Shown: piece by piece, positions 22,238-30,383 of the stretch
How positions within the stretch are numbered: position 1 is the first letter of the stretch
How the letters are laid out: each line of letters opens with the position of its first letter
NCBI GenBank assembly: GCA_001604275.1
Contig: LVBD01000014.1
Coordinates: 1 to 38,659, forward strand
Reading direction: 5' to 3'
Length of the DNA stretch: 38,659 nucleotides
Source: Spirochaetales bacterium Spiro_02
Lineage (GTDB): Bacteria > Spirochaetota > Spirochaetia > Sphaerochaetales > Sphaerochaetaceae
The notes under the pieces: generated by a model
What the model was told of the DNA's origin: nothing
The model's input: only the letters and a program-made list of their open reading frames with translations
The model's database searches: none
Made by a program: the position numbers and the translations under genes

Positions 22238-23800
22238 ATGGGGCCTAAGACAGGATTTCTGATGGACGAAGAAAGGAATCCCAGGAGATCGGATCACGTC
22301 CGTACGGTTCGCCATACATGGATCGGTCGGCATGCGGTGGCACTGCCCATTTTGACACTCCTGCTGATTCTCTTGCACCCTCTTGCGGCTGTGTCGGAAG
22401 AATCATCGGCGCAGGGTTGGATACCCCGATCGATCCTGTTCGGATTCGGCAACGACAATATCACATACGGAATAGCACGGAACAACGACGACGGTCTGTC
22501 CTATGGTGGCAGGATCCTCGTCGAAGCTCCGCTGTGGTGGGCGGAACTTGCGTTCGAAGGGTATACGAATCGAGGTTGGAAAACGACCTGGGACGCGGAT
22601 GCCGAGCCGTACCAAGGACGTTACGACGTGGCCAGACTTGGATACGGGATGCATCTTTCCCCGTTGCGCACCATGACGCCATCATGGGCGGACATTTCCG
22701 TGCGGCCGTATTTCGGACTGCATCTTGCCGGGAATCTCGGCCTGGTGGAAATTCAGAACCGGTTCCACAAGATCATCAACCGCCCGTATCTGACCATCGA
22801 CTACGACGCACCCATCGGGGATCCGCTCGTGTCGGCGGAACTCGGAGCGATAGTCTCCGTTGGAAGCATATGGAACCTGGCAGGTTCCGCTCAAGGAAAG
22901 ATTTCCTTGGCGGTGGACGGACAAGCCGAGGTCATTACGGGATTCGAGACCCAGGAACGGATCGGCGTTTTGTTCAGCCTGCTTGCTGCGGACACGCAGG
23001 TCGTATCGTTCAAAGCCGGATGGATCTGGCAGCAGGGCATGACGCAATGGCCGACGCAACGCCTCATGAGCGTTTTGAAAACAGGGCCGGTCATAGGCTT
23101 CGACATCAGGGCTGGGCTTCTTGCCGTGGAGTTCTCCGCAAATCCTGCGATTCGAAGCGGTTACGGAATCGTGAGCATCGACGCAGGTGTCCTGATGCGA
23201 ACACCGACATGGCGGCGAAGCGATCTAGACATCGCCATGGGAGCCGGATATCTTCTGGGGCGCTCGGTCCATCTGCTCAAGATTGAAGCGCCTATCGCTA
23301 CGGTTCCGGGACTGTCCGTCGTTGGATCCGTCCAATACAAGGGAGGCCCTCTCGATCCTGAAGGGGAAGAGGATGAGCCTGAAGCTCCCCGCAAACGATC
23401 GAACAACGCAAGCTGGATCGCATCGGCAAGATGGCGGGCACCGGAACGCTTCTCGGAAGGATGGGTGGTTCCGTACGGACAAGCCGGGGTCGGTTTCATT
23501 TCCTACGACATGGTAGAGCATATCAACCATATCGCCGATTCAACCGCACCGGTTCGTGTCGTCTTCGGAGGTCTCCGACCTCTGGTCGATATCGAAGCCG
23601 GGCTATCGATCATTCCGCAAGGGGCGATTCTGTCGGGCAACTCCACGTATCGGCTGGAACTGGGGGTGGGACTGAGCCATGTATTCGGAACCGGCGGCAT
23701 CCTGCAAGCGATCGAAGGGGAAGCGGAAGTTTTTTCATCGGTTGTCAGACCGTGGATGGCCCGCATGTTCCTCTGTCTGACGGCAGGAATCGACCTATAG
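22238..23800 (+). CDS. outer-membrane beta-barrel protein, possibly LpxR-like
   Basis: 520 aa. After a 30-residue charged leader comes a signal-peptide-like hydrophobic segment (about 32-50, ALPILTLLLILLHPLAA). The rest is rich in alternating hydrophobic/aromatic strands separated by charged loops, as in an outer-membrane barrel; a highly acidic loop (EGEEDEPEAPRKR) lies near residue 375. The segment FGFGNDNITYGIARNNDDGLSYGGRI (68-93) recalls the active-site region of lipid A 3'-O-deacylase LpxR (Asn-Asp pair, then Ser/Thr-Tyr-x-Gly), and H139 could be a catalytic His. That assignment is weak. The ATG has AGGAAGG 6 bases upstream. It follows the ABC-F gene by 25 bases. Confidence 0.6.
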   Translation: MGPKTGFLMDEERNPRRSDHVRTVRHTWIGRHAVALPILTLLLILLHPLAAVSEESSAQGWIPRSILFGFGNDNITYGIARNNDDGLSYGGRILVEAPLWWAELAFEGYTNRGWKTTWDADAEPYQGRYDVARLGYGMHLSPLRTMTPSWADISVRPYFGLHLAGNLGLVEIQNRFHKIINRPYLTIDYDAPIGDPLVSAELGAIVSVGSIWNLAGSAQGKISLAVDGQAEVITGFETQERIGVLFSLLAADTQVVSFKAGWIWQQGMTQWPTQRLMSVLKTGPVIGFDIRAGLLAVEFSANPAIRSGYGIVSIDAGVLMRTPTWRRSDLDIAMGAGYLLGRSVHLLKIEAPIATVPGLSVVGSVQYKGGPLDPEGEEDEPEAPRKRSNNASWIASARWRAPERFSEGWVVPYGQAGVGFISYDMVEHINHIADSTAPVRVVFGGLRPLVDIEAGLSIIPQGAILSGNSTYRLELGVGLSHVFGTGGILQAIEGEAEVFSSVVRPWMARMFLCLTAGIDL

Positions 23801-24859: not shown

Positions 24860-26200
24860 ATGATCCGAATCAAGAAACCATTTCTATTGGTGGCGGCATG
24901 TTGTCTGGCCATGAGTATCGGCATCCCTCTCTGTGCGACGGAAACGGCGACCACGGTCGTCACGTTGCAGGAGGCGCTACAAGCATCGCGACAGAACAAT
25001 ATCGACCTTTCGATCGCACAGATCAAACTGCAACAGGCGCTCCGTACGCAGAATGCGACGGCATCGACGTTCATGCCGTCCATTTCATTGACCGGAGGAC
25101 TATCGACAGGCGGCAGCGTCATTTCCGGAACCTATTCAGGAATCAACATGAATGTGAGCGCAGGAGCGAGCTTCAGCTTCGACGGCTCCATGCTGACGGA
25201 TTCGCAGACAAGAGCTCTGAACAAGGAGGATGCCTCGCTGACCTATCAGAGCACATTTTCGTCGCTTCAAGAGAGCGTCATTACTGCATATTGGAATCTT
25301 GCCGCAAACGAAAACGCCGTCGAAGAAGCGCAATTGAGCCTCGACCAGGCGAAGCAGCAGCTCCAGACAGCGCAGGATCAATATGAAAACGGAACGGCGC
25401 CGAACCTGACGGTGGTCCAGGCTCAGCTTTCCGTATCGAAGGCGGAAATCCAGCTCAAGCAATTGCAGGACTCCAAAACCCTTGCCATGAGCGCGTTCAA
25501 AGCATTGACGGGCATCGAACTGGAAGCATTCGCAGTAGAAGATCTTCCACAGACCGTAGAGCTCGCACTTCCTGCTTCCCGGCAACTCTACGAACAGTAT
25601 GGAGAAGATACGACCACGATCAAAGCGCTTCGCAATGCGCTGGCACAGGCACAGAACGACAGCAAGACCACGACGCTTGCGAATCGCGTCCCGACGGTCA
25701 GCGTCTCGACCTCATGGACTCTCTCGGAAACCGCGGCGGCGACGACACAAACGACCAACGGACTGAACGATACCGCATCGCTGTCCCTTTCCGTCAGCGT
25801 CCCCCTCAGTTCCTATATCAATGGGACGACGGCCAACCTGCAGATCAAGGACTCCCAGGATGCGGTAACGACCGCACAGCTCCAGCTGCAGGCCGGACGG
25901 CAGACGCTCCTTCAGTCGATCGACAGCGCCGTGACAAGCATCACACAACAGCAGGAGAATATCATGATGCAGGCACAGAACGTAGAGACCTCTCAGTACA
26001 GCTACGAACTATCCCAGCAGGCATTCGAGGCGGGGCTGCTGTCCGCACAGGAACTGGAGGAGGCAAGAACCGAACTGCTCAACGCCCAAGTCACCCTTTT
26101 GAACACGAAACTCAGCCAGCTGCTGTCCTGTTACGACCTCGCATCGCTGCTCGGAATCGACCTCGCCACCTTGCAAACACAGTATTCCGCTTCCGTCTGA
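24860..26200 (+). CDS. TolC-like outer-membrane efflux channel (BesC-like)
   Basis: 446-aa outer-membrane factor. A signal peptide (IKKPFLLVAACCLAMSIGIPLCA) is followed by two repeats of the OEP fold made of long amphipathic, Gln/Ala-rich coiled-coil helices: VVTLQEALQASRQNNIDLSIAQIKLQQALRTQ near the start, NENAVEEAQLSLDQAKQQLQTAQDQYENGTAPNLTVVQAQLSVSKAEIQLKQLQ in the middle and SYELSQQAFEAGLLSAQELEEARTELLNAQ near the end. It forms the trimeric exit duct for the pump. It is first in an operon with the adaptor (28 bases downstream) and RND pump, the order reported for Borrelia besC-besA-besB. GAGGAAA lies about 10 bases before the ATG. Confidence 0.9.
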   Translation: MIRIKKPFLLVAACCLAMSIGIPLCATETATTVVTLQEALQASRQNNIDLSIAQIKLQQALRTQNATASTFMPSISLTGGLSTGGSVISGTYSGINMNVSAGASFSFDGSMLTDSQTRALNKEDASLTYQSTFSSLQESVITAYWNLAANENAVEEAQLSLDQAKQQLQTAQDQYENGTAPNLTVVQAQLSVSKAEIQLKQLQDSKTLAMSAFKALTGIELEAFAVEDLPQTVELALPASRQLYEQYGEDTTTIKALRNALAQAQNDSKTTTLANRVPTVSVSTSWTLSETAAATTQTTNGLNDTASLSLSVSVPLSSYINGTTANLQIKDSQDAVTTAQLQLQAGRQTLLQSIDSAVTSITQQQENIMMQAQNVETSQYSYELSQQAFEAGLLSAQELEEARTELLNAQVTLLNTKLSQLLSCYDLASLLGIDLATLQTQYSASV

Positions 26201-26228
26201 CGGAAGAACCCATAGGAGAAAATGAATC

Positions 26229-27179
26229 ATGAACAAAAGACATTCGGCGTTCGATGTCGTCATTACGATCATATTGCTGTCGATATGCTGCGCATTAGCG
26301 GCGGCCATTATCATGAACATGCAGAAAGGCACCTCCGACGATGGCGCGACAGAAGCCGGAATGGGTCCTGGGTCTGGTATGACAAATACATCCCAGTCAC
26401 AGGTAGTCAACGTCTCCGTAGCGACCGCAGCGTCATCCACGTTCCTGAAGACCACGAAAATGAACGGGGAGATAGGAAGCGAAGGTCATGACATAGATGT
26501 ATTCGCGGAAATCGGAGGACAGGTCACCCAGCTGACAATAAAGAAAGGGGATGCGGTGCAGGCAGGTGATGTCATCGCCACCGTCGATCCTTCGAAACCG
26601 GGTGCTCAGTACAAAGCGAGCCCGGTCACGGCTCCGGTCACGGGAACAGTGGAATCGGTATCCGTTGCGGTCGGCGCGACCATAACGACCAGCACATCCA
26701 TCGCCACGATCGCAGGGGACAAGACATTGGTCATTACCGCCAAGATTCCTGAGAAGTATCTCGGAACGCTGGAAAACGGCATGTCGGCGACATTCACCAC
26801 CGCCGCATGGGCGGATCGCACATATGACGCCATCCTTACGTATATCTCACCAACGGTAGACACCTCCACTCGGACTGTCGACATCGAGTTGGATATCATA
26901 GGGGATACGGCGGGTCTGAAAGAAGGGATGTACATCAGTCTCGACCTGATCACCGAGCAAATAGACGACTGCATCACCGTTCCGACATCGGCGATCTCGA
27001 CCTTCCTCAACGATTCGGTGGTCTACGTCGTCAAGGAAGGCACCGCCAAACGACAGATCGTTACGACAGGAAGTTCGAACGATACCCAGACAGTCATTCT
27101 CTCCGGTCTTTCGGAAGGTGACCAGGTCATCGTCGTCGGTTCCGCTGGTGACGGCGTCGCCGTCAACGTCCTGGACTAA
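26229..27179 (+). CDS. RND periplasmic adaptor lacking the alpha-hairpin (BesA-like)
   Basis: 316-aa membrane-fusion protein anchored by an N-terminal helix (9-29). The lipoyl domain is visible as two halves, VFAEIGGQVTQLTIKKGDAVQAGDVIATVD (91-120) and SPVTAPVTGTVESVSVAVGATI (131-152). In AcrA-type adaptors a coiled-coil hairpin of 60 or more residues is inserted between them; here only about 10 residues (PSKPGAQYKA) connect them. The beta-barrel (LVITAKIPEKYLGTLENGMSATFT) and membrane-proximal domains (VPTSAISTFLNDSVVYVVKEGTAKRQIVTTG) follow normally. This is the architecture described for Borrelia BesA. ATG 26229 is chosen; AGGAG lies at 26215-26219. An ATG at 26222 is in another frame. Confidence 0.9.
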   Translation: MNKRHSAFDVVITIILLSICCALAAAIIMNMQKGTSDDGATEAGMGPGSGMTNTSQSQVVNVSVATAASSTFLKTTKMNGEIGSEGHDIDVFAEIGGQVTQLTIKKGDAVQAGDVIATVDPSKPGAQYKASPVTAPVTGTVESVSVAVGATITTSTSIATIAGDKTLVITAKIPEKYLGTLENGMSATFTTAAWADRTYDAILTYISPTVDTSTRTVDIELDIIGDTAGLKEGMYISLDLITEQIDDCITVPTSAISTFLNDSVVYVVKEGTAKRQIVTTGSSNDTQTVILSGLSEGDQVIVVGSAGDGVAVNVLD

Positions 27180-27191
27180 GGGGGAATATTC

Positions 27192-30100
27192 ATGACATTA
27201 TCCGAACTCTCCGTACGGCGTCCCGTACTGATGACGATGGTCTATGTATTGATCTGCGTCATCGCCTTGGTATTCCTTCCGAACCTCGATATCGCGCTCT
27301 ACCCCTCCGTTGAAATGCCGATGCTGACCGTGTTCGTCGACTGTGACGAAGCTGGACCGGAAGAAATCGAACAACAAGTAGCGAAAACCCTGGAAAGCTC
27401 GCTCAGTTCGCTCGAGGATCTCGAATCCATGACATCGCAGTGCTCCGAAGGACAGGCGATGCTCATGCTGGAGTTCTCATACGGCACGGATCTGGACGAG
27501 GCCTCCGACGATATCTCGACGTTCATCTCCCGGGTCACCAGTCAGTTGCCCGACTGGGCGGACACCCCTCAGGTCATGAGATTCGACATGTCAAGCAGCA
27601 GCACCATTCTCAGGCTCACGCTCAGCGGCGACCGCGACACGGAGGAACTGCAGCAGATCGCCGATGATACGGTCACGCCTCTGATCGAACGGATCTCCGG
27701 GGTCTCGCAAGTCGAAGCGTTCGGCGGCGGGACGGTCGAATACGAAGTAAACGTCTCCGAAAACCGTCTTGCGGCTTATGGTCTGACGCTCAGTGAAATA
27801 TCCAGCGCTATAGAAGACCGGAACATCCAAAGTACCGGCGGAACGATCACGCAGGACGGCATGAACTACCAGATCGCCACCGACGAGCGGTATACGTCGC
27901 TCGATCAGATCAGGCAGACGGTCGTCGCGACGATAGACGATGTGCCGGTACGTGTGCAGGACATAGCGGAAGTTTCCAAGAACCTCGAAGCGAACGGCAA
28001 AGAGTCATACTATAACGGAAGCCAAGTCGTCACGCTCAGCGTCTCCAATGATTCAGATAGCAACGCAACCACCGTGGCGGAAGAAGTCAAGTCGCAACTT
28101 GCTTCGATCAACGCCCAACTTCCCGAAGGGATCCAGCTGACGATCCAACAGGACTCGACGCAGATGATATCGTCGACGATGGACGAAGTATACAAGTCGG
28201 CGATCGAAGGCATCGTGCTCGCAGCGGCTATCATCTTTCTCTTCCTGAGGGGGATCAAGAGCACGCTGATCATCGCACTGTCCATGCCGATCTGCATCAT
28301 GATCACGCTGATGGTCATGGCGATAGCCGGAGTCACAGTCAACAGCATGAGCATGAGCGGCCTGATTCTTGGCATCGGCATGATCGTCGATGCGTCGATC
28401 ATCATCCTGGAAAACACCTATACGTACCGCTCGTTGGGTGAGAAATCAGCTATCGCGGCGATTCTCGGTAGCAAGAACATGTTCAATGCGATCGTCGCCT
28501 CCACGTTGACGACGCTGTGCGTATTCGTCCCCGTCCTGATCTACAAATACGATCTGGGGATGATCGGCATGATGTTCCAGGATCTGGTCATCACCGTATG
28601 CATCTCCCTGGCGAGTTCTCTGTTCGTCGCAGTGACGCTGGTGCCGGCGCTCGCGGGCAGCATCCTGCGGATCAATACACGGACACAGAAACCGCTTCGG
28701 TTCCCTCCCCTCCGCTGGATCGACAACCTGATGTCCCGCTTCGAAGAGGGAATGCGCAACGCCTATGTGCGGGTCCTCGCATATTTTCTTCGACACCGGT
28801 TGCTTTTGATCGTCCTGCTAGCGCTTCTGCTGGCGCTGAGCCTCCAACAATTCTCCGGCATCGGCATGAGCCTGACCCCATCGATGAATACCGACGATTC
28901 AGTCTCCATGTCCCTCACTCTCGATCCCGGCACCAACCAAACCGTGACGAAAGGATATCTGTTCGACATGCAGCAGAAAATCATGGATACGCTTCCCGGA
29001 GAAAGCTGGACAAGCATCATGGTGGATGTCGGGACCAGCAATACAGGCAGCCTGACGATCTCCCTTCCAGACATTACCGAACAGACGACCAGCGCCGCGG
29101 AGATCAAGAACCTGATCAGGCCTCTGATGCAACTGGATCCGAGCGCCACATGGACGTTCTCCGCAGGGAGAGGCCCAGGATCCTCGAGCGCGATCGATGT
29201 CGAAATCCACTCCGAAGATACCGACGTGACCAAGCAGGTGTCCGATCAGATCGTATCGATCCTCACTACCTATGTACCGCAGGCGACCAATATCCAAAGC
29301 GATATGACCAACGGTGCTCCAAAGATATCCATCGACGTCGACCAGCGGAGGGCTCAGGATCTCGGAGTGGATATGAGCACGCTCTCCACTGCGCTTCAGG
29401 CCGCCATCACCGGTCTGGATGCGACGGAAATCACCACATTCAGCGCCGATACGACCTACACCGTAGTCGTCAAGCTCGATGATGCCGATCTAGCCTCGGT
29501 CGATTCTCTTGGCTCGCTCCTCGTTCCGGCCAAAAATGGCAAGGTCCGTCTTGACAGCTTCGTCACCTTTACCACAGGCACCGCACCGAAAACCATCACG
29601 CGAGAAGATCGGGTGAGAGTGAACCATGTCACGGCTTCGTTGCTCGATGGATATGCGGCGAGCGAGGTCCAGCCGCTGGTCGACGAGGCGCTGGAACAAT
29701 ACTTGATCCTTCCCGACGGCGTGACGCTGGAGCAGAGCGGCGAGATGAGCCAGTTCAACAGCTACAGCGGTTCGCTGATCATGATCATCGTCCTTGCCCT
29801 GTTCCTCGTCTATGCGGTCATGGCGGCCCAGTTCGAAAGTCTGCTCGATCCGCTGATCATCTTCGCAACGATTCCCCTGCTGTTGATCGGCGTCGTAGGC
29901 ATCCATCTGATCATGGGCCAGGATTTCAGCTTGTTCTCCATCGTCGGCATCGTGGCGCTGATCGGTGTCGTCGTCAACAACGGCATCGTCCTGGTAGACA
30001 CGATCAATCGGCTGGTCAGCGAGAAGATGCCGATCAAGGAAGCATGCCTGAATGCCGCGAGAAGCCGTCTACGTCCGATCCTCATGACGACGCTCACTAC

Positions 30101-30383
30101 GGTACTGGGGATGATACCGATGGCATTCTTCCCTGGAGAAGGCTCGGAAATGATGCAACCCATCGCCCTGACGTTCACCGGTGGACTGGTCACCGGCGCA
30201 TTTTTGACGCTGCTCCTCTCGCCGGTCCTCTATTCCATCCTCAACGCACACAAGGAGAAGCATTACGATGACCCTGAATCGCTGAACAACCAGTTGCGCG
30301 AATATGACGTGAGACGGCTCACGAAACTCGATAGCAGCGACATCACCATGGAATCTCAAGGACACGAAGGCTCAGTGGATTGA
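27192..30383 (+). CDS. RND-family inner-membrane efflux pump (BesB-like)
   Basis: 1063-aa pump of the HAE class with 12 expected membrane helices and two large periplasmic loops. Typical blocks are SVRRPVLMTMVYVLICVIALVFLPNLDIALYPSVEMP, VEAFGGG, GLILGIGMIVDASIIILENTY (helix 4) and IVGIVALIGVVVNNGIVLVDTINR (helix 10). In helix 4 only one of the two proton-relay aspartates of AcrB is kept (D400-A401) and the helix 10 lysine position is Asn (N929/N930), as in a number of non-AcrB RND branches. The gene starts 12 bases after the adaptor stop with GGGGG 9-10 bases upstream. It is the last gene of the operon and is followed by a palindrome and a terminator. Confidence 0.95.
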   Translation: MTLSELSVRRPVLMTMVYVLICVIALVFLPNLDIALYPSVEMPMLTVFVDCDEAGPEEIEQQVAKTLESSLSSLEDLESMTSQCSEGQAMLMLEFSYGTDLDEASDDISTFISRVTSQLPDWADTPQVMRFDMSSSSTILRLTLSGDRDTEELQQIADDTVTPLIERISGVSQVEAFGGGTVEYEVNVSENRLAAYGLTLSEISSAIEDRNIQSTGGTITQDGMNYQIATDERYTSLDQIRQTVVATIDDVPVRVQDIAEVSKNLEANGKESYYNGSQVVTLSVSNDSDSNATTVAEEVKSQLASINAQLPEGIQLTIQQDSTQMISSTMDEVYKSAIEGIVLAAAIIFLFLRGIKSTLIIALSMPICIMITLMVMAIAGVTVNSMSMSGLILGIGMIVDASIIILENTYTYRSLGEKSAIAAILGSKNMFNAIVASTLTTLCVFVPVLIYKYDLGMIGMMFQDLVITVCISLASSLFVAVTLVPALAGSILRINTRTQKPLRFPPLRWIDNLMSRFEEGMRNAYVRVLAYFLRHRLLLIVLLALLLALSLQQFSGIGMSLTPSMNTDDSVSMSLTLDPGTNQTVTKGYLFDMQQKIMDTLPGESWTSIMVDVGTSNTGSLTISLPDITEQTTSAAEIKNLIRPLMQLDPSATWTFSAGRGPGSSSAIDVEIHSEDTDVTKQVSDQIVSILTTYVPQATNIQSDMTNGAPKISIDVDQRRAQDLGVDMSTLSTALQAAITGLDATEITTFSADTTYTVVVKLDDADLASVDSLGSLLVPAKNGKVRLDSFVTFTTGTAPKTITREDRVRVNHVTASLLDGYAASEVQPLVDEALEQYLILPDGVTLEQSGEMSQFNSYSGSLIMIIVLALFLVYAVMAAQFESLLDPLIIFATIPLLLIGVVGIHLIMGQDFSLFSIVGIVALIGVVVNNGIVLVDTINRLVSEKMPIKEACLNAARSRLRPILMTTLTTVLGMIPMAFFPGEGSEMMQPIALTFTGGLVTGAFLTLLLSPVLYSILNAHKEKHYDDPESLNNQLREYDVRRLTKLDSSDITMESQGHEGSVD

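Follow-up and report, generated by a model that had tools for sequence, protein, structure and literature searches.

The closest described relative of the system analyzed here is BesCAB of Borrelia burgdorferi, which combines a hairpin-less adaptor with the gene order channel-adaptor-pump and whose operon, when disrupted, leaves Borrelia more sensitive to drugs (PMC3807786). AcrAB-TolC and MexAB-OprM are built from the same three protein families, and their adaptors carry a hairpin between the lipoyl halves. Bunikis (2008) described a nine-residue loop and its charges in BesA, and gave the number of residues between the lipoyl halves as 61 in MexA and 75 in AcrA (PMC2279261). The structure of BesA was presented by Greene (2013), who noted similar sequences in Treponema, Spirochaeta and, rarely, Legionella; the loop was flexible, with clear density in one of three crystal forms, and was ordered in the crystal by the loop of a neighboring molecule (PMC3807786). 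That the mode of contact must differ when the hairpin is missing has been in print since 2008 (PMC2279261) and again in 2013 (PMC3807786), and the core idea of a hairpin-less spirochaete pump is already published. A 2015 review singled out assemblies lacking the hairpin as perhaps the most serious challenge to the tip-to-tip model of pump assembly (PMC4446572).

The window, that is, the whole 38,659-nucleotide stretch of DNA analyzed here, comes from a spirochaete genome of 2.61 Mb in 74 contigs (completeness 99.73) and carries three genes that almost certainly encode a tripartite RND efflux pump of the BesCAB type (Table 1). The operon spans positions 24860-30383, with channel, adaptor and pump genes in that order, all on the plus strand, and intergenic gaps of 28 and 12 bases by their coordinates. 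By analogy with BesABC, small toxic compounds would be the default assumption for the exported substrate. A 520-residue open reading frame upstream of the operon (22238-23800) has no Pfam match.

Table 1. Features of the channel-adaptor-pump operon in the window, and an example of the PG0541-family gene from another locus.
Feature	Position	Strand	Basis or remark
Outer-membrane channel, TolC/OMF family, BesC-like	24860..26200	+	PF02321, 135.3 bits
Channel periplasmic tip 1, YENGTAPNLTVVQAQ	25382..25426	+	Alignment of 151 channels; turn between helices 111-176 and 182-217
Channel periplasmic tip 2, FEAGLLSAQELEEAR	26024..26068	+	Alignment of 151 channels; turn between helices 324-390 and 396-431
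RND periplasmic adaptor without α-hairpin, BesA-like, 316 aa	26229..27179	+	TIGR01730, 155.4 bits
N-terminal helix, residues 7-33, probable inner-membrane anchor	26247..26327	+	AlphaFold2 helix
Connector loop DPSKPGAQYKASP, residues 120-132, in place of the hairpin	26586..26624	+	Alignment, AlphaFold2
RND pump, BesB-like	27192..30383	+	PF00873, 738.5 bits; pump tree
PG0541-family gene, example locus	L056:321-710	-	Also at L150, L152 and 65 other loci

The adaptor scores 155.4 bits against NCBIfam TIGR01730 (cut-off 94.9) and 81.3 bits against Pfam HlyD_D23 (cut-off 30), and shares lipoyl, β-barrel and MP parts with the AcrAB-TolC and MexAB-OprM adaptors; where these have their hairpin, it has a short loop. 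Positions 1-67 and 136-311 of TIGR01730 match 26412-26615 and 26622-27146, which nearly abut, and the hairpin section of the profile (positions 68-135) is skipped. In an AlphaFold2 model built from 51 aligned sequences (mean pLDDT 91.3), a strand formed by residues 115-120 is followed by a loop without helix and by a strand at 131-134, so that ten residues, 121-130, connect the lipoyl halves. The profile gap and the modeled loop confirm the figure of about ten residues given in the initial annotation, and by both measures the coiled-coil hairpin of the AcrA/MexA type, with its channel-binding tip, is absent. BesA is the best sequence match of the adaptor in the PDB (4kks, E=3.6e-30; the next chain is ZneB, 1.6e-14) and takes ranks 1-8 in a Foldseek search with the adaptor model. 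The loop reads DPSRPGSVYLKSPV in BesA and in L152, a locus that we infer to be Borrelia-like, and DPSKPGAQYKASPV in the window; connector length and motif agree. The likeness to BesCAB in gene order and in the missing hairpin, as claimed earlier for this DNA, is therefore supported. The systems differ in their channel tip sequences, and the presumed Borrelia-like loci L150 and L152 possess a PG0541 gene, which the window pump lacks. BesA also has a lipidation site at Cys26 (PMC3807786), whereas no consensus lipobox was seen by eye at the N-terminus of the window adaptor, which is probably anchored by the helix modeled there. We regard the lipid anchor as a property of BesA, not as a requirement for belonging to the hairpin-less type.

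Connector length was counted between D120 and the lipoyl Gly in one alignment of 198 adaptors, including loci from a motif scan of named genomes and four plasmid loci. It is 20 residues in 130 adaptors, at least 40 in 47 and of other values in 21; a length common to so many argues that the missing hairpin is not due to chance. Position 9 of the loop is aromatic in all 128 hairpin-less adaptors counted (104 Tyr, 24 Phe), a set that leaves out two Legionella adaptors and overlaps with a set of 147 distinct adaptors. Within the survey part, which includes one plasmid-borne Treponema adaptor, the aromatic is present in 60/60 loops and Gly occupies position 6 in 54/60. When columns were ranked by background-weighted information across the survey adaptors whose connector has 20 residues (59 adaptors, equivalent to 57 effective sequences and not motif-selected), the aromatic column came first of 317, and D120, P121 and G125 ranked 19, 21 and 22. 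The mean pLDDT of the AlphaFold2 block 121-130 is 78, against 93-98 for the other blocks from residue 61 on. Loops from the window's own class start with DPS, DAS or alike in 29/31 cases, and those of other classes have Arg at position 2 in 24/30; the DPS motif served to find the named set (L059-L127), and this set is biased at positions 1-3, not at 9.

An aromatic near the loop site is, on alignment, not unique to the hairpin-less type: among 47 hairpin adaptors, a chosen subset of those found, 18 have one two residues closer to the lipoyl Gly, and 10 have one at equal distance from it. Two Legionella adaptors (L208 and L209), encoded in plasmid operons of copper type, share with the window the lack of a hairpin, the 20-residue connector, Gly at position 6 and the gene order; their loop, QSRLIGNPPPSV, has no aromatic and their pumps fall elsewhere in the pump tree. 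With equal connector length and no aromatic, they show that the aromatic is not needed everywhere. The short, fixed-length, strongly conserved loop in the hairpin's place is, at the level of sequence, what is new here. Our literature search turned up no published statement on its conservation, and a supplementary figure of spirochaete adaptors in Greene (2013) may show the motif; a 2026 adaptor review makes no mention of BesA (PMC13328181). Five loci (L155, L157, L174, L176 and L199) combine the same connector length and aromatic with neither the DPS nor the DR..G motif, and their pumps lie on a separate branch; convergence is possible in this group. Connectors of 38 residues starting SS.ERAA were observed at L171, L175, L198, L231, L250 and L251, behind a channel gene and with no adjoining RND gene, and connectors of 12-14 residues at L177-L181, L183 and L200, with no channel or RND gene directly adjacent.

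The window adaptor matches something in 355 of the 392 genomes of the phylum, a figure that counts adaptors of every kind. The survey comprised 60 matching genomes, which were searched with TIGR01730, and the window's own genome; together they cover 58 family codes, and 120 stretches were retrieved. Families without an adaptor match (at least one code, f40) and 17 unlisted genomes lay outside it. An adaptor with a connector of 20 or 21 residues is present in 44/61 survey genomes and 42/58 families (17/21 in the window's own class and 25/37 in other classes); as these genomes were chosen among carriers of an adaptor match, the share is biased upward and the true share is lower. A few adaptors may also have been missed, since a far-down match (G011:C121) was left out. 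The BesCAB-type pump is ordinary equipment for spirochaetes. The description of this pump type as spirochaete-wide, offered in the initial annotation, holds in the sense that the type is common, not in the sense that it is universal: 17/61 survey genomes yielded no hairpin-less adaptor. Nor is it the sole type, since 11 survey genomes combine a hairpin-less adaptor with a hairpin adaptor that adjoins a pump gene. The comparison of hairpin length across spirochaetes and other phyla, suggested at the same time, yielded the fixed connector described above within the alignment; beyond the phylum it extended to one motif scan and to plasmids (the best 40 of 2859 records). The motif scan of named genomes returned 74 stretches with 69 adaptors, all in spirochaete records, and the two Legionella plasmid operons show that the type is not confined to spirochaetes.

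The best PDB match of the window pump is MdtB (9lyq, E=2.7e-95). In a FastTree phylogeny of 98 of the 146 pumps, whose deep branches are weak, 64 of the 72 partners of hairpin-less adaptors fall on one branch of 65 pumps (SH-like support 97), the sole hairpin partner on this branch being the pump of L212. The window pump groups in this tree with the presumed Borrelia-like pumps that stand beside hairpin-less adaptors. The remaining hairpin-less pumps form a second group of five, a third group made up of the Legionella pair, and one pump alone. The hairpin label changes five times on the tree, three of these changes being forced by well-supported branches, which indicates more than one gain or loss of the hairpin-less state. 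Gene order mostly goes with the adaptor type: channel-adaptor-pump is found for 117/130 hairpin-less adaptors with a downstream pump gene vs 4/23 hairpin adaptors, or 50/59 vs 3/22 when the survey and the genome's own loci are taken alone. Order alone is not diagnostic, as the Legionella operons share it with a Sphingobium plasmid operon whose adaptor has a 62-residue connector. At the positions of AcrB D408 and K940, which belong to the proton relay, the window pump has Ala and Asn. Asp occurs at 408 in 3/120 pumps beside hairpin-less adaptors and 1/22 beside hairpin ones, and Asn at 940 in 116/120 and 17/22.

Neither the pump nor the channel makes up in length for the missing hairpin. A longer docking domain in the pump was considered and rejected, as the docking segments have the same medians, 62 and 67, in the 120 pumps beside hairpin-less adaptors and the 22 beside hairpin ones. 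Longer channel helices were likewise rejected, segment lengths being alike in 120 partners of hairpin-less and 31 partners of hairpin adaptors: the two segments from tip to fold have a median of 41 residues in both groups, and the other two have medians of 146/148 and 173/176. The window channel can be aligned to TolC over its whole length, with no extension, and is modeled by AlphaFold2 as a TolC-type barrel (pLDDT 87.6; top Foldseek matches include TolC, ST50, OprM and CusC). A Gly in tip 1 is common to the channels of both adaptor types. It is followed by Ser, Glu and Leu in 83, 72 and 84 of the 120 partners of hairpin-less adaptors vs 13, 5 and 7 of the 31 hairpin partners, an enrichment that kinship alone could explain; the window channel has PNLT instead of the enriched residues. 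A weakened TolC-type gate has been reported for BesC (PMC4446572, PMC8277102). At the TolC gate positions D153 (tip 1) and Y362 and R367 (tip 2), the window channel has Thr, Phe and Leu. A weakened gate as a general trait of the hairpin-less type was rejected, as D/E, Y/F and R/K occur together in 40/120 channels of this type vs 1/31 hairpin partners.

We propose that the adaptor would form a ring around the pump funnel, the arrangement of other RND systems, and that the channel would be seated directly on the crown formed by the pump docking domain and the lipoyl tips; the assembly would then lose roughly the length of one hairpin. In place of the hairpin, the connector loops with their aromatic residue may supply a contact that docks the channel or seals the ring. 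Direct channel seating without hairpins is the simplest assembly given that there is no hairpin and no compensating length in channel or pump, and we regard it as probable. For the loop as a docking or ring-sealing contact the case is evenly balanced, and as a docking contact proper a little worse than even, although it is the best single candidate for the docking element. Taken as a whole, the proposal of a BesCAB-type pump with direct channel seating and loop contact has, in our judgment, about an even chance of being right. Models of the assembly have to accommodate a channel and a pump without compensating length, and a loop of fixed length whose aromatic is the best conserved site of the protein offers a single residue at which docking can be tested.

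Conservation of the turn could be accounted for through folding alone, since the loop is short and its conserved Asp, Pro and Gly are typical turn formers. The loop would then be kept only for the folding of the lipoyl domain, and pump-channel tip contacts alone would hold the channel, in keeping with the proposal of Greene (2013) that channel and pump touch directly and that the lipoyl domain lies close by (PMC3807786). We consider this possible, though on balance unlikely, as no other column of the protein is conserved as strongly as the aromatic, even though this residue sits in a loop that is flexible in BesA crystals and forms the least confident part of the AlphaFold2 core. The loop-loop ordering in the BesA crystal also fits an adaptor-adaptor role. 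A contact of another kind, in which positive loop residues meet negative residues of the channel tip, was proposed for BesA from models (Bunikis 2008, PMC2279261). Of 128 adaptors, 51 have Lys or Arg at position 4, 25 have one of these at position 11 and only 3 at both positions, and the mean net charge of loop positions 2-14 is +0.5. With BesA's two charges so seldom together, we reject the charge model as a rule, and consider charge pairing very unlikely as a general mechanism.

A further possibility is that another, hairpin-bearing protein serves the window pump in trans. The genome, an assembly in many contigs, does encode one hairpin RND adaptor, at C26, with a 72-residue connector and a canonical-looking hairpin; it adjoins its own pump gene, however, with a channel gene ∼1.5 kb past the pump match. 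Profile searches with TIGR01730 and PF13437 returned the same five adaptors, each beside a transporter gene, the second profile adding a biotin-carrier protein. Besides the window and C26 adaptors, these comprise one in a second hairpin-less set in channel-adaptor-pump order (G000:C37:65877-71166; loop DPSRPGSTFNVSQV; lipobox LVGC) and two that adjoin MacB-like ABC genes by eye. No orphan hairpin adaptor was seen in the genome with these two profiles, other matches being weak or of the biotin-carrier kind. A separate hairpin adaptor serving this pump, the objection raised in the initial annotation, was thus sought genome-wide with these profiles and not found. A hidden hairpin gene beside the operon was rejected as well, as the one widely shared family among the neighbors of 90 hairpin-less operons is PG0541, and the sequences inspected show no secretion signal by eye. 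In each of the presumed Borrelia-like genomes G076 and G234 a single match reaches E<=1e-12, and Greene (2013) reports no substitute in B. burgdorferi (PMC3807786). Service in trans is therefore very unlikely. Another reading dispenses with a continuous conduit: the pump would discharge its substrate into the periplasm, with the channel working loosely, as might be expected from the missing grip of the hairpin and the altered gate residues of the window channel. This too we hold to be very unlikely, given that the three genes stay together in the 117/130 cases above and that disruption of besCAB sensitizes Borrelia to drugs.

When the neighbors of 90 hairpin-less operons were clustered, one widely shared family emerged, NCBIfam PG0541 (82.8 and 85 bits; cut-off 45), whose protein is weakly like P-II (Pfam E=0.0019, below the Pfam cut-off). 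A PG0541 gene lies 3' of the pump in 68/114 hairpin-less operons with enough sequence and in 0/22 hairpin operons (Fisher p=6e-8, a test that ignores relatedness), and the family is present in 179/392 genomes of the phylum and 0/14 control genomes. In the window's genome it is absent from the window operon and present in the C37 operon. The link suggests a regulator of the hairpin-less pump class, Borrelia-like operons included. A broader reading, tentative and to our minds rather doubtful, is that the hairpin was replaced, not simply lost. The 13-residue aromatic loop would then be an element of its own for docking the channel or sealing the ring, and the defining feature of an old and widespread class of spirochaete pumps, many of which would be regulated by a P-II-like cytoplasmic fourth subunit (PG0541, sometimes as a C-terminal fusion to the pump). 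A search of plasmids gave no match to the PG0541 protein, and our literature search returned nothing useful on a P-II-like protein with an RND pump, and one PG0541 expression study. Of the 68 PG0541 sequences, 64 are separate genes, all on the pump strand and 62 of them within 300 bases, and the remaining four (L123, L124, L137 and L161) are fused to the C-terminus of the pump.
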